From positions 310,001 through 374,000 of the forward strand of contig CATLAK010000001.1 in assembly GCA_949878435.1 (NCBI GenBank): DNA of 64,000 nt. The letters run 5' to 3'. The stretch comes from an uncultured Lachnospiraceae bacterium. Its GTDB lineage: Bacteria; Bacillota; Clostridia; Lachnospirales; Lachnospiraceae. A program made the position numbers and the translations under genes. The stretch's first letter is position 1. Each line of letters begins with the position of its first letter. The notes beneath the pieces are model-generated. The model had not been told where the DNA came from, ran no database searches, and worked only from the letters and a program-made list of their open reading frames with translations. Below are positions 6,551 through 46,611 of this stretch, one piece after another.

Positions 6551-7378
6551 TTACGCACTTGTTTTGGCGTAAAAGTACATCTCGATTCCCTCCGCGATTC
6601 CCTCTGCGATCTTTTCCTGATATTCAGCCGTGGAAAGCTGGCGGCATTCCTTCCGATTGGTCAGAAATCCTGTCTCGATCAGGCACGCCGGCATCAGGGT
6701 CTTGTTGGTAACATACAAATCCGCGATATCCCACAATACCCGCTCGTTGGCTCCCGTGCTTTTAATGGTCTGCTGGTGGACCAGCTCTGCAAGCCTTGCA
6801 TTATCCCTGCTTTGATCCGCTCCGTCGTACCAGGTCTCGATTCCGCTCACGCTCTTATCACTGCCCTCATAGGTATTTTGATGAATGCTCACATAAGCAT
6901 CCGCCTGATAGCTGTTTGCCAGTTCTGCCCTCTCTTCCTTAGAAAGGAACTCGTCTGTCTCCCGGGTCATCAAAACCCGGAACCCTCTCTCCTCCAGATT
7001 CTGTTTCACCCTGAGGGCAATTTGAAGATTAATGTCCTTTTCATAGATTCCAAACCCCAGACATCCCGAGTCTTCGCCTCCATGCCCTGCATCCACCACG
7101 ATCATCGGTCCTTCCTGGCGCCTTATCTTGTCCCACATCAAATTCTGCACTGCCAGCATGTTTTCTGCCGCTTCCAGTTTCCAGGACATCTGCAGCGTCT
7201 CTTTCGTCTTTTCTTCTGCCAAAATAGGAGCCGATGATACCGGCGCCGCCAACGCCACCATTTCCACGTAAGTACATATGAAAACAGTCAGTGCCACAAG
7301 CAATACCGGCTGTAAAAATCCTGCCTCTCTATTCCTTTTTCTCTTATTTTTCCAATTCCTGTTTTTTCTTCCGTACAT
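6551..7378 (-). CDS. N-acetylmuramoyl-L-alanine amidase (Amidase_3), membrane-anchored
   Basis: A 275-residue cell-wall hydrolase that cleaves the amide bond between MurNAc and the stem peptide. A basic N-terminus is followed by one membrane helix (about residues 22-45), which is either an anchor or a signal peptide. The catalytic domain starts near residue 90 with IVVDAGHGGEDSG (zinc His), then YEKDINLQIALRV (zinc Glu), VSIHQNTYEG (zinc His) and LIETGFLTNRKE (catalytic Glu). It lies just downstream of the two-component operon but has its own promoter, preceded by six tandem 11-bp repeats shared with that operon's upstream region. It is therefore a likely target of the adjacent response regulator. 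Confidence 0.93.
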   Translation of the reverse strand: MYGRKNRNWKNKRKRNREAGFLQPVLLVALTVFICTYVEMVALAAPVSSAPILAEEKTKETLQMSWKLEAAENMLAVQNLMWDKIRRQEGPMIVVDAGHGGEDSGCLGFGIYEKDINLQIALRVKQNLEERGFRVLMTRETDEFLSKEERAELANSYQADAYVSIHQNTYEGSDKSVSGIETWYDGADQSRDNARLAELVHQQTIKSTGANERVLWDIADLYVTNKTLMPACLIETGFLTNRKECRQLSTAEYQEKIAEGIAEGIEMYFYAKTSA

Positions 7379-7416: not shown

Positions 7417-7497
7417 AGCATACACACAGGGTGCATCATTTTTTCATCATTCTTGCATCATAATACCATCATTTTTGCATCAAATCTGCATCATTTT
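7417..7497 (-). promoter_or_regulatory. Amidase promoter with six tandem 11-bp activator repeats
   Basis: Six consecutive 11-bp units fill 7432-7497; the plus-strand consensus is TGCATCATTTT, read on the minus strand as AAAATGATGCA. They start at 7432, 7443, 7454, 7465, 7476 and 7487 and are exactly in phase. Nine bases beyond the last unit is TATGCT (7417-7422), a -10 box for the amidase gene. No good -35 is present, as expected when an OmpR/PhoB-type activator replaces it. The right end overlaps the stop codon of the upstream gene. Confidence 0.8.
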
Positions 7498-8321
7498 GAA
7501 ATTTTTAAAAACAGCTCATTGATTCCCTCATAAAATCCAATCGTCACGATGCTTATTTCCTCTCCGCTCCCCGAAAATACATATTTTTTGTAATAGGGCG
7601 TGGATTCCAGCAGGGGATTTTCTGTCTCATAAGGAAGGGGCTTGGAAAGTCCCATATATGTGCTCCATTTTTCTATCAGCGCGTCAGGGTCTACATCTTT
7701 CCATTCCCATTCTGTTCTGGCATAAAATTCGTACACCTTCCCGTCATCCGCATCCAGATAAGCGTCTATGAGATGATTGCTCTTATCTGCATTTTTTACA
7801 TTGGTGGAAAGACTCACCTTCCAGACTGCAACGTTATTTCTGGGCTCTAGCACATCGATTGCAGAGTACAGCGTCGCATCATAATCCCCTCCGCCTACCT
7901 CTTTCACCGTTTCCGGCAATATTCCCAGCTCCTTAAGTGCTGCCATGGTCTGGTTACAGGTATTGAAAATCTGTTCATCCGTGATTTCCCTTCCGGTAGG
8001 TCCCCTGTGGTTGACCACGAAAGCATAGGTGCCATCCAGCTCCTGATATTCCTTTGTTTCATCCTCCAGCCTGGTAAGGGCATTCTGTTCGCTCTCCGGA
8101 GGGCTCTGGCTGTTCAACGCCTGGGAGAGAATATACAGCTTCTCGCTGCTATCCAGTTTATATCGATAACCCTCTCCTTCCATTTCGGAAGTCTGGGTGT
8201 TGATCCTATCGAGCACCGTCCGGTCCCTGTATCTGGCAAGCAGTTCCGGTCCCCAGATGGATAAGACCATGACCAAAACCGCAAACGTGTAGAAAGCATA
8301 CTTAATGGTCGGTTTTTTCAT
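7491..8321 (-). CDS. Membrane-anchored protein of the two-component operon, function unknown
   Basis: A 276-residue protein with an N-terminal basic stretch and one membrane helix (about residues 6-27), the rest being predicted outside the cell. No domain was recognised. The second half has two strand-rich segments (VWKVSLSTNV, IDAYLDADDGKVYEFYARTEW) that resemble a PepSY/YpeB-like or YcdB-like substrate-free domain, but this is only an impression. The frame is open further upstream, but GGAGGAGG precedes the ATG at 8321. The start lies 20 bases inside the histidine kinase gene, so translation is probably coupled. As the fourth gene of the operon it may assist the kinase or be an effector in the cell envelope. 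Confidence 0.75.
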   Translation of the reverse strand: MKKPTIKYAFYTFAVLVMVLSIWGPELLARYRDRTVLDRINTQTSEMEGEGYRYKLDSSEKLYILSQALNSQSPPESEQNALTRLEDETKEYQELDGTYAFVVNHRGPTGREITDEQIFNTCNQTMAALKELGILPETVKEVGGGDYDATLYSAIDVLEPRNNVAVWKVSLSTNVKNADKSNHLIDAYLDADDGKVYEFYARTEWEWKDVDPDALIEKWSTYMGLSKPLPYETENPLLESTPYYKKYVFSGSGEEISIVTIGFYEGINELFLKISK

Positions 8322-9735
8322 TGGCTGCCTCCTCCTTTCTCCTATCAGGAAGGACAAAGCTGATACTCGTTCCCTCTCCCAGCGTGCTTTCTATCTCAAG
8401 GCTGCTGCCATGGAGGGATAGGATCTCCGTGCACAGGGAAAGCCCAAGCCCTGCTCCGTTTCTGCTTCTGGATCTGGATTTATCCACCATATAAAATGCC
8501 TTGGTAATCTTCTGCAGTTCCTGCTCTGGGATTCCAATCCCATGATCCCTTACGGTAAATCGGTAACCGCCTTCTTCCTTTCTGCCGCCGATTTCTACAA
8601 CGCTTCCCGGTTCAGATGCCTTACAGGCATTGTCAAGAAGATTAATTAAGACCGTTATGATCATATTGCTTTCCGCCCACACCGTCGCCTTATCGTAGTG
8701 AAATTCAAACTGCATGCTTTCATTGGTCTTAAACATATCCTTTATATAAAGGAACAGGCTTTCCGCCGAAGCCTCCTGGAACTGCACCTGTCCATGCCTG
8801 GTCACCATGATATCCAGAAGGCGTATAGACATGGCTTCTAACCGCTTTCCTTCCGTATAAATATAGTTGGCGGACATAAAACTCTTCTCCTCATCCAGCT
8901 TTCTGGAACGCAGCATATCCGCATAGCCAATGATCGCCGTCAGCGGCGTTTTCAGTTCATGGGCAAAAGCACCCACGAAGTCTTCCCGCGCCTGTATCTC
9001 ATCCTCCAATTTATTGATATTCTCCTCCAGCGCCTCCGCCATCTGATTGAAATCAAGGGTCAGCCGTCCCAGCTCATCATCGCTGATCTGTTTTGCGCGG
9101 TAAGCATAGTCTCCCGCCGCCATCTGCTTCGTCGCCTTTGTCAAAAGACGGATTGGTTTAGTCAGCCAGGAAGAAATCAGATGCATGATGATTGTTCCAA
9201 AAAACAGCATGATGATCGTCACCCGCTGGTAGACCTTAAATCCCAGCTCTCTTTCATTGAAGACCTCCGAGACATCCCGCAAGGTTTCCAGATACAGCAC
9301 CCGGTCCAGCGCATTGACAGTGCTTCCGGTCTGAATATAATAATGATCGTTCAAGAGGATGGTACGGTAGGTCTTAGTGACGGCATCGGTCTGTGCCAAA
9401 AGCTCATCATCCGTCTCAAAACCGTCGCTGGCATACAAAGGGCTTTTTTCCTCATTAGACAGGCGCAGCATGCGGCTGGCATTCTGTCCGCCGGATTCTA
9501 AGTTCGCCGCAATCTGCTCCACCGTACTGTCCTGCAGCACATCGTATTTTGCCGGCACATTTAAGGCAGCCGTCTCAAATGCAAAACATAAAATACTGTT
9601 CTCATCCAGCGCCTGCCCCGCCTCCCTGGCAAGGGAGGTCTCAAACACATAATTGACAAAATAAAAGCCGCTGATTCCAAGGGCGATTGCCATGACAATC
9701 ACCGTCCACAGCAATAATTTTAACGAAAACTTCAT
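8302..9735 (-). CDS. Sensor histidine kinase (HAMP, HisKA, HATPase)
   Basis: A 477-residue OmpR-partner kinase. Membrane helix 1 is near residues 5-28, an extracellular sensor of about 150 residues follows, and helix 2 is near 180-203. The HAMP linker (KPIRLLTKATKQMAAGDY) follows, then the phospho-acceptor H-box FVGAFAHELKTPLTAIIGY, the N-box NLLDNACKAS, and the G-boxes RDHGIGIP and GAGLGLSL. The ATG at 9735 overlaps the response regulator's TGA in an ATGA junction and is preferred over an upstream frame extension. It should phosphorylate the regulator encoded just upstream. The signal is unknown, but the regulon points to the cell envelope. Confidence 0.94.
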   Translation of the reverse strand: MKFSLKLLLWTVIVMAIALGISGFYFVNYVFETSLAREAGQALDENSILCFAFETAALNVPAKYDVLQDSTVEQIAANLESGGQNASRMLRLSNEEKSPLYASDGFETDDELLAQTDAVTKTYRTILLNDHYYIQTGSTVNALDRVLYLETLRDVSEVFNERELGFKVYQRVTIIMLFFGTIIMHLISSWLTKPIRLLTKATKQMAAGDYAYRAKQISDDELGRLTLDFNQMAEALEENINKLEDEIQAREDFVGAFAHELKTPLTAIIGYADMLRSRKLDEEKSFMSANYIYTEGKRLEAMSIRLLDIMVTRHGQVQFQEASAESLFLYIKDMFKTNESMQFEFHYDKATVWAESNMIITVLINLLDNACKASEPGSVVEIGGRKEEGGYRFTVRDHGIGIPEQELQKITKAFYMVDKSRSRSRNGAGLGLSLCTEILSLHGSSLEIESTLGEGTSISFVLPDRRKEEAANEKTDH

Positions 9736-10391
9736 CCCTGTACCTCTAAGCGGTAACCAACCTTGTACACTGCCACTAAATTCTGTTCCCATCCCAGCTT
9801 CTTTCTAAGACGCTGCACATGAAGATCTAAGGTGCGGCTGTCCCCGATGTATTCATCGCCCCACACCTTCTCATATAATGCTTCCCGAAACAGCGCCACA
9901 TTTTTATTCTGTATGAACAGCACCAGCAGTCCAAACTCCTTATTGGTAAGGACCACCTGCTTCCCATCCTTTAAAACCCTTCTTGCGTCCACATCTACCA
10001 CGATGTTTCCTGCCGTAAGAAGCTTATCCGTCTTATTATAACGGCGAAGGACCGCTTCCACCCGCGCCACCAGTTCCACCACGTCAAAGGGCTTCACCAG
10101 ATAATCATCCGCTCCCAGCTTCAGTCCCTTCACTCTGTCTTTTACTTCGTGTTTTGCCGTAATGAAAATGACTGGAATCTTTAATGGACGGATGTACTCG
10201 ATCACATCATATCCGTCTGCCCCCGGCAGCATGATATCCAGCAAAATCAAATCAAATACTTCTTCCTCTATCAGATCAATAGCGTCCAGCCCATTCTGCA
10301 CGGAAGTGCAGTGATAGCCTGCCGCCGACAAGTTCAAATCAATCAAGTCGCAAATCGCTTTTTCATCGTCTACAATCAATATCTTAATCAT
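9732..10391 (-). CDS. OmpR/PhoB-family response regulator
   Basis: A 219-residue regulator with an N-terminal receiver domain: acidic pair in ILIVDDEKAI, phospho-acceptor Asp in LILLDIMLPGADG, Thr/Ser in VIFITAKHE, and Lys in DDYLVKPFD. The C-terminal winged-helix domain (residues about 125-219) ends RTLDLHVQRLRKKLG followed by VYKVGYRLE, the OmpR-type recognition helix and wing. It overlaps the upstream gene's stop by an ATGA junction. OmpR/PhoB proteins bind direct repeats spaced 11 bp, which is exactly the spacing found at three promoters in this window, including the ones before this operon and the amidase. It is the best candidate to bind them. Confidence 0.95.
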   Translation of the reverse strand: MIKILIVDDEKAICDLIDLNLSAAGYHCTSVQNGLDAIDLIEEEVFDLILLDIMLPGADGYDVIEYIRPLKIPVIFITAKHEVKDRVKGLKLGADDYLVKPFDVVELVARVEAVLRRYNKTDKLLTAGNIVVDVDARRVLKDGKQVVLTNKEFGLLVLFIQNKNVALFREALYEKVWGDEYIGDSRTLDLHVQRLRKKLGWEQNLVAVYKVGYRLEVQG

Positions 10392-11515
10392 TCTTTTGTC
10401 TTCCACCCCCAATATGCCCTTGCCCTGTCCACAAGCCCGGACACCGTATCTTCATCACTGCACGGGTTCTTAAGTTTGATATCCTTATCTTCCATAAAAC
10501 CGCCCGTTCTCTGATAGTAAATTGCATAATCGCACTCTGTGATCATCTCGTTTTCGCTGCCCGCATAACTGTATTTGGCAAGCACCAGCATATCTTTCAT
10601 TCCGTCTCCGTCGATATCCCGGCAGGTGATTCCTTTAAGCGCATACAGATTATCAAAATCTCCCATAGGCTGCAGACACCACACGATATATCCCTGCTCA
10701 TTGACAAGATAAATCATGAATGTGGCAAAGTTTGCCATGGTATAGGTGCCCGGCACCACTTCCAGCCTTCCCAGCTTCTCAAACTGCCTGTAATAGCACT
10801 GCTCCTTTTCGATCACAAAACCATGCTCCAAAAGTTCCTGTTTGGTGGCTGCCGTATAGAGAAATTCCGTGGAGTAGCCGTCCCTGACAAAGACAACAAT
10901 ACTCTCCACGCTCTTGTTCATGCTGAAGCGGTTGATCTTGTCGGAGATTCTATAGTCCCTGTAAAATCCCTTTTCATTCTGAAACAGGACGTCGCCGATC
11001 TTGTAGGGCTTGCCCGCATAATCGCCTTCATCGTTCACGCAGGTGGTAATCAATATAATATCCATCCTTCCGTCCCCGTTCAGCTCCTGAAAAGAAACTG
11101 CCTTTAATTCCCGCAAAGGCTGCTCCATTTCCCCTGGATTGCGGTTATTGACCTCCAGCTGGTCCGTCTTATATACAACGCTGCCGTCCTCATCGGTAAA
11201 AAATAACGCCAGCCTGTGATAGTCCTTCTCCATCGCCGGGACAAAGGACACCTCTCCAAAACTTTTCGTTTCTATGGGAAATATCTGATCTTCTATGATA
11301 TCAAAGCCTGCGGGCTCGATTTCCCCGTAGTCTTCGATCTGTGAGAACCGCTGTCTGTAGCTTCGATAAGCTTCCGAGAGCGCCTTTGCATCGCCTGCGT
11401 CTGCTTTTCCATAAAGCGCACTGCCTGCCCCGCGGGCATAAATGGCAAAAGGCGAGGACAGCGCCAGCATACAGGTACATAATATTGCAGATGAAAATAG
11501 AATTCCTTTTCTCAT
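10388..11515 (-). CDS. Secreted VCBS/FG-GAP-repeat protein, first gene of two-component operon
   Basis: A 375-residue protein with a signal peptide (residues 1-28, ending near YARG). Two Ca-binding type repeats are visible: FQELNGDGRMDIILI near residue 140 and CRDIDGDGMKDMLVL near 300. These match the D-x-N/D-x-D-G-x-x-D pattern of FG-GAP/VCBS repeats, which fold into beta-propeller blades outside the cell. It overlaps the response regulator by 4 bases and leads the operon, so it may be a sensor accessory for the kinase. A much larger lipoprotein with similar repeats is encoded at 44.3-46.5 kb and carries the same promoter repeats. Confidence 0.85.
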   Translation of the reverse strand: MRKGILFSSAILCTCMLALSSPFAIYARGAGSALYGKADAGDAKALSEAYRSYRQRFSQIEDYGEIEPAGFDIIEDQIFPIETKSFGEVSFVPAMEKDYHRLALFFTDEDGSVVYKTDQLEVNNRNPGEMEQPLRELKAVSFQELNGDGRMDIILITTCVNDEGDYAGKPYKIGDVLFQNEKGFYRDYRISDKINRFSMNKSVESIVVFVRDGYSTEFLYTAATKQELLEHGFVIEKEQCYYRQFEKLGRLEVVPGTYTMANFATFMIYLVNEQGYIVWCLQPMGDFDNLYALKGITCRDIDGDGMKDMLVLAKYSYAGSENEMITECDYAIYYQRTGGFMEDKDIKLKNPCSDEDTVSGLVDRARAYWGWKTKE

Positions 11516-11560
11516 GACTTCGTCACCGGCTTCTCTTTCGTAGTGGATTGTGCTTTAAAT

Positions 11561-11590
11561 ATTATAGCACAGAGGAGCTCATTCACACAA
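11561..11590 (-). promoter_or_regulatory. Basal promoter of the two-component operon
   Basis: On the minus strand, TTGTGT (11585-11590) and TATAAT (11561-11566) are 18 bp apart, with an extended -10 (TGC before TATAAT). This probably gives regulator-independent expression of the operon. Confidence 0.65.
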
Positions 11591-11675
11591 TCGGCACTTT
11601 TTTACTGCATTCTCACTCTATCTTAATCCTTTACCCATGATCCGTTCTTTTCTGTGCAGTATGTGGATGCATCTT

Positions 11676-11712
11676 ATTATAAACCATACTTGCATCATTT
11701 TTGCATCATAAG
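11676..11712 (-). promoter_or_regulatory. Activator-type promoter of the two-component operon with two 11-bp repeats
   Basis: Two tandem units (TGCATCATTTT at 11691-11701 and TGCATCATAAG at 11702-11712 on the plus strand) end 9 bp before a minus-strand TATAAT (11676-11681). The arrangement is the same as before the amidase and the 46.5 kb lipoprotein, and suggests positive autoregulation. The rest of the 274-base gap between genes (11516-11789) shows no gene. Confidence 0.75.
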
Positions 11713-36182: not shown

Positions 36183-36254
36183 TGCACCCGACAGGAATCG
36201 AACCTGCATTAAAGGCGTCGGAGGCCTTCGTTCTATCCGTTAGACTACGGGTGC
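36183..36254 (-). tRNA. tRNA-Arg (anticodon CCG)
   Basis: A cloverleaf of 72 bases on the minus strand: acceptor GCACCCG / CGGGTGC with discriminator A, anticodon stem AAGGC / GCCTT with loop CTCCGAC (anticodon CCG, reading CGG), and T-arm GCAGG-TTCGATT-CCTGT. CCA is not encoded. A promoter lies about 40 bases upstream, and the SH3 gene starts 41 bases after the tRNA. Confidence 0.95.
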
Positions 36255-44243: not shown

Positions 44244-44296
44244 AGAACGAATGTTCTAATGGTAATAATATTATGATATTTATCTCCTTTTGTCAA
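44244..44296 (-). promoter_or_regulatory. Promoter and operator of the opu operon
   Basis: TTGACA (44291-44296) and TAATAT (44268-44273) on the minus strand are 17 bp apart. The -35 overlaps the stop codon of the upstream lipoprotein gene. A perfect dyad, AGAACGAATGTTCT (44244-44257), lies just after the expected start site and would suit a repressor. It resembles the GAAC-N4-GTTC core of Firmicutes LexA boxes, but a MarR/GbsR-type site is equally possible. Confidence 0.75.
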
Positions 44297-46482
44297 TAAT
44301 TGTATGCCCCCAATTCATATATTCTATTTATATTCTGGCAGGTGACAAGTGTCTTTACATAGCAGTCCACCTGCAAAAGCTTCCTGTATTCTGTCTCCGT
44401 AAGCATATAACCGCAGATGTGAAAATCATACAAGCCGTCTTCATACAGGACATAAATCACATTTCCAAAGTCCGTTTCGTCCACCCACAGGTTGATCGGC
44501 GTCCCGATTATTCCATTTTCATAAATCATATCCCGAATCTGATCATTGAGCTTGGCTTCTTCAAAATCATAGCTTAAACTGTCTACTGTATAATAATTGG
44601 TGGTCTGCCAAAGGGATATTCTATATTTCTCCAAAACGCCGTCATTGTCGATGTCGCTGCATCTATTATATTCTTCGTCCTTGATTTCTTCCTCCCCGGT
44701 TCCACAGGAAAGCCTGGTTCCGGACTGATATGTTCCTGCGAGTGTATAAAGGGAAGAGGCAAGATTGCTGTACTTTTCTTTTTCCAGATAAGAAGTCTTG
44801 ATGCTACGCCCTTCCATTCCCTCCTTCGCTGTAATTTTCAGCTCCACTCCTCCCTGATATCTGCCCTCTGCATAACACTCTAACTGAATTCCGTCAACGC
44901 ACTTCTTGGTAAACTCCCACGTAGTCTTTGCCAGATAGTTTTTTCCTTCCCAATTGATAAATGCAAATTCCATTTTCAGTTCTTCCTCTTTTGAGGTGAA
45001 AATATATCTGCCCTCCTTTGTACCCTTAAACAAATAGTAAGATACTGCTCCCAGGCTTCCGCCTAAATATTCACAGAGAAAGATATCTTCTATTCCATCA
45101 TTGTCTGCATCTGCCTTCAGCCATATCCCCTGCCCCAGTGAATTACATGTGATTGTAAGAAGCTGCCTTTTGATATCGGGATTTTCTCTGGCAAGTTCTT
45201 TCACTTCCTCTATTGTAAGTTCCTTATCATTGACCATAGGAAGCATAAGATTTTTCAGCTCTTCTTTGCTGCCAAGGAGCGGATCTGATAAATACGCAAT
45301 CAGTTCCTTGGGAATCTGCTGACTGCCCGTGAGCGACTCTTTCCATCCCCAGTCTTCCCATACCACATTTCCAAGCAGGGATTCTCCAAGGGTATACTCA
45401 AAGGAAGCACTCTTTTCATCCCACAAATATCCTTCTGTCTCACTGTTATACTGCGGATTTAGTTCCCAATAATTACACAAAATATCGTCATACCCATCCT
45501 GATTGAAATCCGCAATCAAAAGATATTTCCCTTCCGGATACTCTTCCTGTGCTTTCTGTATGGAAAGCGGCGTCTGGTAATCGCCTGACCGATACACTGC
45601 CATTTCATCCGTCCCATCCCGGACAACCAAAAATAACGGATCATCTGTCTTATCATTCAGCCAGTAATAGTATTCTAATTCTGATGTGTATTCTTGTTTT
45701 ATCACACATTTACCGCTGTTTCCATGCACAAACCCTTCCTTAAGAAAGTCTTGGAAAGATTCCACATCATTTTGGTAAGAAGTAACAGAACTGTCTCCTT
45801 CCATGACATGAAACAGCTCTTTTTGCCCTGTTTCACTTTCAGAAAAAATGAAATATTCCTCTTCCCCGGCATCGCGATTTTTACCGTGCATCCAGCAGCC
45901 TTCTATCTCTTGCGTTTTCACGGCTCCTTTGATTCCGCCCAAAATCGGAACCGGAAAATACCTCTTCATTTCCGCTGCCAGCTGCAGGGTTTGCTCCGGC
46001 ATTCTACTTATTACATATGGGGTGATTATAATTTCGTGTTCATAACCATCCCTATGACCCTCGGTTCTATGGAAATTGGTCTCTTCATCTGCGCATGCAG
46101 AATGTATATCTGTCAGAACATACTGCTTTATGCCTTCCTCCGTTATGCGCTGCTCTATTTTCCAGCCTGAGGGCAGAGCAATCGAAAAACTTCCAATCGA
46201 TGCTTCTGCTTTGGCTACGCTAAGCTCAAAATCTGCAGGAACCAGTTCCAGCGGACCTACGCCTGTTTCTTCCCCCGTTTTCTCCTTTGAAATTGGCTCC
46301 TTTTTTGAAACCGGCTCCTGATCTGCCTCCAGTACATTTTCTTCCTGCTTTTCTGTATCATCTTTCGTCCCTGCAGTACTGCCTGTTTCAGGAAGCGATA
46401 GGCTCTGCCTGCTGCACCCAACGCTTGACACCCCTATAGAAATCGCTATCATCAATGCTGTCATTCTTTTTCCAAATTTCAT
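44293..46482 (-). CDS. Large lipoprotein with EF-hand/FG-GAP-like repeats
   Basis: A 729-residue surface lipoprotein. A signal peptide ends in the lipobox VSSVGC, followed by a Ser/Glu/Lys-rich linker. Three Ca-binding-type repeats are seen: LIADFNQDGYDDILCNYW near residue 315, LKADADNDGIEDIFLCEY near 450 and CSDIDNDGVLEKYRISLW near 620, the D-x-D/N-x-D-G pattern. No enzymatic domain was recognised. The open frame continues to 46575 but the ATG at 46482 just before the signal peptide is preferred. The promoter carries four 11-bp repeats shared with the two-component operon and amidase at 7-12 kb, so it is likely co-regulated. The gene appears monocistronic. Confidence 0.82.
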   Translation of the reverse strand: MKFGKRMTALMIAISIGVSSVGCSRQSLSLPETGSTAGTKDDTEKQEENVLEADQEPVSKKEPISKEKTGEETGVGPLELVPADFELSVAKAEASIGSFSIALPSGWKIEQRITEEGIKQYVLTDIHSACADEETNFHRTEGHRDGYEHEIIITPYVISRMPEQTLQLAAEMKRYFPVPILGGIKGAVKTQEIEGCWMHGKNRDAGEEEYFIFSESETGQKELFHVMEGDSSVTSYQNDVESFQDFLKEGFVHGNSGKCVIKQEYTSELEYYYWLNDKTDDPLFLVVRDGTDEMAVYRSGDYQTPLSIQKAQEEYPEGKYLLIADFNQDGYDDILCNYWELNPQYNSETEGYLWDEKSASFEYTLGESLLGNVVWEDWGWKESLTGSQQIPKELIAYLSDPLLGSKEELKNLMLPMVNDKELTIEEVKELARENPDIKRQLLTITCNSLGQGIWLKADADNDGIEDIFLCEYLGGSLGAVSYYLFKGTKEGRYIFTSKEEELKMEFAFINWEGKNYLAKTTWEFTKKCVDGIQLECYAEGRYQGGVELKITAKEGMEGRSIKTSYLEKEKYSNLASSLYTLAGTYQSGTRLSCGTGEEEIKDEEYNRCSDIDNDGVLEKYRISLWQTTNYYTVDSLSYDFEEAKLNDQIRDMIYENGIIGTPINLWVDETDFGNVIYVLYEDGLYDFHICGYMLTETEYRKLLQVDCYVKTLVTCQNINRIYELGAYNY

Positions 46483-46552: not shown

Positions 46553-46611
46553 ATCATAAGGCGGCAATGCATCATAACATCATCATTTCTGCATCATTTT
46601 TGCATCATTTA
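46553..46611 (-). promoter_or_regulatory. Lipoprotein promoter with four tandem 11-bp activator repeats
   Basis: Units at 46568, 46579, 46590 and 46601 (plus-strand consensus TGCATCATTTT) are exactly tandem. Nine bases beyond the last is the minus-strand -10 TATGAT (46553-46558). The design is the same as at 7417-7497 and 11676-11712, which are about 35-39 kb away. Confidence 0.8.

Follow-up and report, generated by a model that had tools for sequence, protein, structure and literature searches.

Tandem TGATGCA repeats as candidate operators of a PhoB-like response regulator at envelope-gene promoters of Lachnospiraceae

Introduction

Which regulator reads a tandem 11-base pair (bp) repeat that stands at a fixed distance before the -10 box of several promoters? 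The question is raised by a 64,000-nucleotide stretch of the genome of an uncultured Lachnospiraceae bacterium (assembly GCA_949878435.1, contig CATLAK010000001.1, positions 310,001 to 374,000; hereafter the window), where such arrays precede the genes of an exported amidase and of a lipoprotein, as well as an operon encoding a VCBS-like protein, an OmpR/PhoB-type response regulator (9732-10391, hereafter the regulator) and a sensor histidine kinase. The original prediction, made from the letters of the window, held that the regulator activates all three as an envelope regulon. Based on pattern searches in the source genome (3.4 Mb in 51 contigs, 86% complete) and on comparisons with related genomes, we consider it highly probable that the arrays are operators of this regulator, which would activate envelope genes in the manner of PhoB, in place of a -35 box.

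Results

The three arrays of six, two and four units are all on the minus strand and in 11-bp phase, and each ends exactly 9 bp before its TATGCT, TATAAT or TATGAT hexamer (Table 1), as had been predicted. The unit is better written as TGATGCA followed by N4, that is, seven conserved and four loose bases on the minus strand. Tandem Repeats Finder retrieved the six-unit array (69% matches) and reported the four-unit array as 2.7 copies. In the six-unit array, the first three bases of the distal unit are also the stop codon (7491-7493) of the gene at 7491-8321.

The source genome was searched for the unit pair, alone or in a geometric pattern (unit pair, 9 bp, TAnnnT), with the reversed pattern as a control; match numbers here count several overlapping matches per array. 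The pair with up to two mismatches occurred 26 times genome-wide, against 0 reversed matches. The geometric pattern gave 4 exact matches, 8 with at most one mismatch and 16 with at most two, against 0 reversed matches at each level, and 46 against 2 with up to three. After merging of matches, ten promoters have at least two units at 11-bp pitch and the exact 9-bp offset. The three promoters originally described were therefore an undercount, and the search that the original prediction had suggested, for repeats followed 9 bp later by a -10 box in this genome and its relatives, yielded both these ten promoters and arrays in other genomes. Rather than being scattered away from promoters, all ten own sites precede genes.

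For the comparison with relatives we retained the best 80 of 170 kinase loci from named genomes (kinase 65-99% identical). The conserved gene order is VCBS protein, regulator, kinase, membrane protein, array, amidase; the regulator was detected in 80 loci, the VCBS protein and the membrane protein in 79 each, and the amidase in 63. An array lies within 3600 bp behind the kinase in 71/80 loci (six units in 42, four in 25, three in 3 and two in 1), including all 63 with a detected amidase, and within 1400 bp in 70/80, while only 8 of 1600 shuffles, which kept single-base content only, reached two units. The amidase beside the kinase thus appears as the most conserved target seen. In 44/71 loci the preceding gene uses the TGA of the distal unit as its stop codon, and in 7/71 the array begins exactly 22 bp later than that codon. 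Across the 80 loci, the exact pair was found 61 times at pitch 11; leaving aside the multiple 22, no other pitch between 8 and 24 had more than one occurrence. Offsets to the -10 box peaked at 9 (75 cases), with lesser peaks at 20 (48), 2 (38), 13 (34), 24 (27), 10 (24) and 21 (16), which we take to be letters inside arrays or one unit off. In L169 and L170, a further long array of some eight TGATGCA-like units lies near 16.7 kb (minus strand), close to the operon and on the strand opposite to it.

These controls bear on the possibility that the repeats arose by chance, or are a mobile or structural repeat unlinked to promoters. AT-rich, trinucleotide-like letters such as TGATGA arise easily, and single units occur elsewhere in the window; nevertheless, the pitch and offset preferences, the reversed-pattern control, empty up to two mismatches, and the position of all ten own sites before genes leave this explanation a negligible probability. 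The arrays are not chance repeats.

Promoter architecture was compared across 50 promoters: the ten own ones and 40 from other genomes (L310-L349), the latter taken among the matches listed (through part of genome G307), with the near-identical G304 and G301 copy left out. As these 40 were selected by the geometric pattern (38 exact matches, 2 with one mismatch), they provide no independent test of the 9-bp offset or of the -10 letters; that test comes from the promoters of distant regulator relatives described below. Two units were counted in 21 promoters, four in 21, six in 4, three in 3 and five in 1, so that the number is even in 46/50. Among promoters with at least three units, 25/29 have an even number (binomial p = 1e-4), although orthologous or duplicated promoters are among them. 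Such nearly constant evenness suggests that the arrays are built of 22-bp dimer modules.

The -10 box is TATAAT in 27 and TAAAAT in 11 of the 50 promoters, and the promoter-proximal unit pair covers the position of a -35 box. No promoter among the 50 has a -35 box with at least four matches to TTGACA at spacing 16-18, and array promoters should consequently be weak unaided. This matters for a reading in which the array-bound regulator is a repressor, or both represses and activates: the sites do overlap the -35 region, where binding could block polymerase, but repression sits poorly with 0/50 promoters having a usable -35 box, and the sites of PhoB, an activator, likewise overlap the -35 (PMC3348028). 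We regard repression as quite unlikely, and activation as the probable mode.

If the regulator reads the arrays, the two should occur together. Among 37 genomes of the genus, 29 have the kinase, each with 5-57 motif matches, whereas the eight without it (90-98% complete) have 7, 2, 1, 0, 3, 2, 0 and 3 (rank test p = 3.7e-5, kinship ignored). The best regulator match in these eight is 42-45% identical in six genomes and absent at the threshold in two, the six matches being orthologous (79-87%) to another regulator of the source genome. Three genus members (G307, G317 and G328) have 47-57 motif matches, about three times the 16 of the window's genome, which may reflect a larger regulon or longer arrays. 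In a sample of 299 Lachnospiraceae genomes, the exact pair was present in 7/11 genomes with a kinase orthologue vs 11/288 without (Fisher p = 2.3e-7), and the reversed pattern in 5/299. In three of the 11 carriers lacking the orthologue, a kinase homologue of 33-36% identity lies within 1 kb of the pair. Together with its distant homologues, the regulator/kinase family is found in 65/299 of these genomes (about a fifth), and is thin in other Clostridia.

The promoters of distant relatives point in the same direction. At 38 loci of distant kinase homologues, the pair with no more than one mismatch was counted 15 times at pitch 11, 6 times at pitch 22 and no more than once at any other pitch. 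Distant relatives of the regulator (49-64% identity) were found in 37 cases, 36 of them with sufficient upstream sequence. A site, defined as the pair with A/G at the fifth base, at most two mismatches, 9 bp before TAnnnT, precedes the regulator gene in 21/36, while offsets of 5-8 and 10-14 gave at most 4; none was found at offset 9 before 11 other OmpR-type regulator genes of the source genome. Outside the family, the site was seen at 4/19 homologue loci, vs 2 at the best other offset. Autoregulation is therefore likely in the more distant relatives, as judged from these sites. The recognition-helix motif H[VI]QR is present in 80/80 orthologues and 35/37 distant relatives, vs 0/11 of the own paralogues compared, and is kept in 17/20 class-level regulators. 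Taken together, co-occurrence, gene order, promoter sites of distant relatives and the recognition helix strongly support the original proposal that the local regulator reads the repeat.

The main competing possibility is that another OmpR-type regulator of the cell, for instance a WalR-like one, reads the arrays, the window's regulator being a neighbour or a sharer of sites. WalR sites are also direct repeats with an 11-bp pitch, WalR controls wall genes including amidases (PMC9210968), the best YycF/WalR match of the source genome lies elsewhere (C6:59932), with 265 bits vs 182 for the window's regulator, and genome G310 has two arrays although the regulator was not detected in it. However, the motif is near background in 7/8 genus genomes lacking the pair, although 6/8 keep another OmpR-type regulator (not necessarily WalR-like), and sites stand in the regulators' own promoters in 21/36 distant relatives vs 0/11 own paralogue genes. 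We therefore find such a substitute reader unlikely.

A number of observations do weigh against the window's regulator as the general reader of the arrays and against its modular mode of binding. The source genome encodes about 25 near full-length OmpR-type regulators, of which 11 paralogues were compared. Genome G310 (94% complete) has two convincing arrays and neither regulator nor kinase was found in it; the arrays (C25:244876, L292, and C11:123482, L298) have about four and six units and TAnnnT at 9 bp, and are followed by exported proteins (by eye). G319 and G323 have one related site each. Conversely, the exact pair is absent from 4/11 family genomes with a kinase orthologue, in two of which (G107 and G033) the geometric pattern is missing as well at up to one mismatch, and 2 of the 3 pairs found near remote kinase homologues (G144 and G175) have no TAnnnT at 9 bp. 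No array was found behind the kinase in 9/80 relatives; these nine loci are also without a detected amidase, and 2 of the 9 have less than 3 kb of sequence there. No site precedes the regulator gene in 15/36 distant relatives, and the odd arrays (three of 3 units, one of 5) break parity. Finally, kinship among the genomes means that the tests overstate independence.

We next consider what the arrays would control. The first genes behind the ten own promoters encode the amidase, the VCBS/FG-GAP-like protein, the lipoprotein and seven others, including a second FG-GAP-like protein (contig C7) and a leucine-rich repeat (LRR) protein with an FG-GAP-like stretch (C6); a target pair on C6 consists of an MBOAT acyltransferase followed by a GDSL protein. 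Several of these assignments lie under model cut-offs: the amidase under that of CwlD (148 vs 222 bits), the MBOAT protein under that of DltB, which it resembles (151 vs 375 bits), and the FG-GAP matches under those of Pfam, except in the lipoprotein. No phosphate-acquisition gene was recognised among the ten, four of which have no Pfam family. By a simple and crude hydropathy measure, a hydrophobic N-terminal segment is present in 10/10 own first genes vs 39/104 background genes of the same genome, and in 29/39 first genes of other genomes (Fisher p = 1.3e-4 vs background). The latter were called by a simple rule that is doubtful for L310, L313, L321, L323, L329 and L337 and gave none for L349. 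A Pfam scan of 30 of these 39 left 13 unassigned; among the remainder are a GH25 lysozyme, two LysM proteins, LRR and WG-repeat proteins, PdaC-like domains (below cut-off) and two sulfatase-domain proteins (L322 and L343; L322 scored 104 bits with the LtaS model, cut-off 970). One first gene, L315, encodes a cytoplasmic AAA protein that misfits the envelope pattern. The predicted targets are thus mostly exported or membrane proteins of the envelope, and the envelope regulon of the original prediction is supported by the hydrophobic starts of all ten own first genes and by the amidase, MBOAT/GDSL, FG-GAP-like and LRR targets.

The array before the regulator operon itself appears to have a different history. 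An array within 700 bp upstream was found in 1/77 related operons, that of L112 (99% identical). In L123 (kinase 93% identical), an array promoter and the VCBS gene are separated by a gene for a 563-residue LysM protein. Window positions 11709-11666 are 93% identical to this LysM promoter, and 11602-11448 are 85% identical to the L123 sequence directly before the VCBS gene, past the LysM gene. A search confined to the window and the remaining 79 loci detected no LysM gene of this kind. A comparable LysM gene, preceded by a related promoter (75% over 93 bp), lies on another contig in genome G299 (L311). Both LysM genes (L123 6400-8088 and L311 200-1906) have their own two-unit array. Closer to the operon, about 45 bp before the VCBS gene, an array-free promoter of the form TG[CT]TATAAT (TGCTAAAAT in L117) is conserved in the window and seven relatives.

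The simplest reading is that a deletion joined a LysM target promoter to the regulator operon; the alternative, that L123 gained the LysM gene by insertion, is less likely, because the array and leader also match a LysM promoter elsewhere. The operon's array accordingly resembles a target promoter that was captured in this lineage. That it is instead a genuine ancestral autoregulatory promoter would agree with its perfect two units and TATAAT at 9 bp, and with the sites at the regulator gene of distant relatives, but is improbable given its presence in a single, 99%-identical related operon, the match of both window segments to the flanks of the L123 LysM gene, and the conserved array-free promoter nearer the operon. 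As a core feature, the predicted activation of its own operon by the regulator is thus not supported; as a captured promoter, the array may add feedback in this species.

Coordinates of all features are given in Table 1. The regulator consists of a receiver domain and a winged-helix Trans_reg_C domain. For the first operon gene, the predicted structure is tentatively beta-propeller-like, while fold comparison with a model of the membrane-anchored protein gave no clear match; two stretches of that model (34-53 and 73-96) are of low confidence, so the missing match says little. Judged by the kinase, Lachnospiraceae bacterium IMSAGC_005 is the closest named record (99%), and Parablautia species reach 83-84%. 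Within the kinase gene, on the opposite strand (9314-9341, plus), lies a perfect TTGACA-16-TATAAT promoter match (12/12) that could yield an antisense transcript, and which may be due to chance, since the region contains 7 promoter-like matches in all, fewer than the 10.3 that shuffles contain on average. A tRNA gene (36183-36254, minus strand) is the sole Rfam match in the window at the gathering threshold.

Table 1. Positions of the arrays, their -10 boxes and the associated genes in the window.
Feature	Position	Strand	Evidence or context
N-acetylmuramoyl-L-alanine amidase, exported (Amidase_3), predicted target	6551-7378	-	Pfam 7.9e-53
-10-like TATGCT	7417-7422	-	9 bp from six-unit array
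Six-unit TGATGCA-N4 array	7432-7497	-	before amidase gene
Membrane-anchored protein, no known family	7491-8321	-	next gene after kinase
Sensor histidine kinase (HAMP, HisKA, HATPase_c)	8302-9735	-	Pfam
OmpR/PhoB-type response regulator, proposed array reader	9732-10391	-	PF00072 9.6e-30, PF00486 2.1e-20
FG-GAP/VCBS-like protein, exported, first operon gene	10388-11515	-	below Pfam cut-off
-10 TATAAT preceded by TGC, array-free extended -10 operon promoter	11561-11566	-	window and 7 relatives aligned
-10 TATAAT	11676-11681	-	9 bp from two-unit array
Two-unit array	11691-11712	-	upstream of regulator operon
Lipoprotein with FG-GAP-like repeats, predicted target	44293-46482	-	Pfam
-10-like TATGAT	46553-46558	-	9 bp from four-unit array
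Four-unit array	46568-46611	-	before lipoprotein gene

Discussion

From the sites, their spacing and parity, their conservation, their co-occurrence with the regulator and the types of targets, we infer the following mechanism. The kinase, presumably in response to an envelope signal, would phosphorylate the regulator, a dimer of which would bind TGATGCA-N4-TGATGCA head-to-tail on one face of the DNA, in 22-bp modules of two units. The promoter-proximal dimer would sit where the -35 box is missing, 9 bp before the -10 box, and recruit sigma-A RNA polymerase, while additional upstream modules would probably increase occupancy or output. A bolder proposal, which we hold only tentatively and at slightly less than an even balance, is that this is a new envelope-sensing two-component family with a countable code, in which one, two or three modules at 9 bp set the strength of each target, and the regulon is rewired by module gain, module loss or promoter capture.

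The arrays would provide a readable DNA signature for a two-component regulon in a major family of gut bacteria. Surface proteins of unknown function (FG-GAP-like, LRR, WG-repeat and PdaC-like) would share control with wall enzymes, so that their roles could be tested together. The natural series of two, four and six units offers a means of relating dimer count to promoter output, and the captured promoter illustrates how a feedback loop could arise through deletion.

Among the open-licence PubMed Central papers listed, none appeared to describe these repeat letters or such a system in Lachnospiraceae. Several known systems are nonetheless comparable. The first is PhoB/PhoP with the PHO boxes of Escherichia coli and other bacteria, where an OmpR/PhoB-type regulator uses two 11-nucleotide direct repeats of seven conserved and four loose bases (PMC4415409); the arrays have the same construction, with two such repeats lying across the -35. 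PhoB is also the best NCBIfam match of the regulator (TIGR02154, 195.4 bits), but far below the equivalog cut-off of 296.2. In contrast to PhoB, the unit is TGATGCA instead of CTGTCAT, the targets are envelope-like, and the arrays reach six units. PhoP of Mycobacterium tuberculosis recognises 7-bp motifs separated by a strict 4-bp spacer, to which it attaches as a head-to-tail tandem dimer; three or four motifs in a row are bound more tightly (PMC4832192). Motif and host are different there, and triple sites are bound, whereas odd arrays are rare here.

WalRK was weighed because the operon of Clostridioides difficile, walA-walR-walK-truA2, is similar: the system has an envelope regulon with amidases and an 11-bp pitch, and the first gene of the operon encodes a lipoprotein with a predicted beta-propeller domain (PMC9210968). 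An identity of the present pair with WalR/WalK was rejected, the scores being 183 vs a cut-off of 340 bits for NF040534 (YycF) and 189 vs 725 bits for NF033092 (WalK). The window's regulator is only the 12th-best WalR match in its own genome, in which no gene passed the YycF cut-off. Of the WalR motif, TGTWAH-N5, only the pitch agrees with TGATGCA, and WalRK is described as essential and present in all Firmicutes (PMC9210968), whereas the present pair was not found in 8/37 genus genomes. We therefore keep WalRK as an analogy only. RR_1586 of C. difficile is another clostridial OmpR-type regulator that binds an 11+11 direct repeat, as deduced from a motif and comparative genomics, with a different motif (DRTTAAGNWWW) and sporulation- and phosphate-related targets (PMC6222199). 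By comparison with these systems, the arrays would define a new regulon with a mechanism of the known PhoB-like kind, distinguished by an unusual even-number rule.

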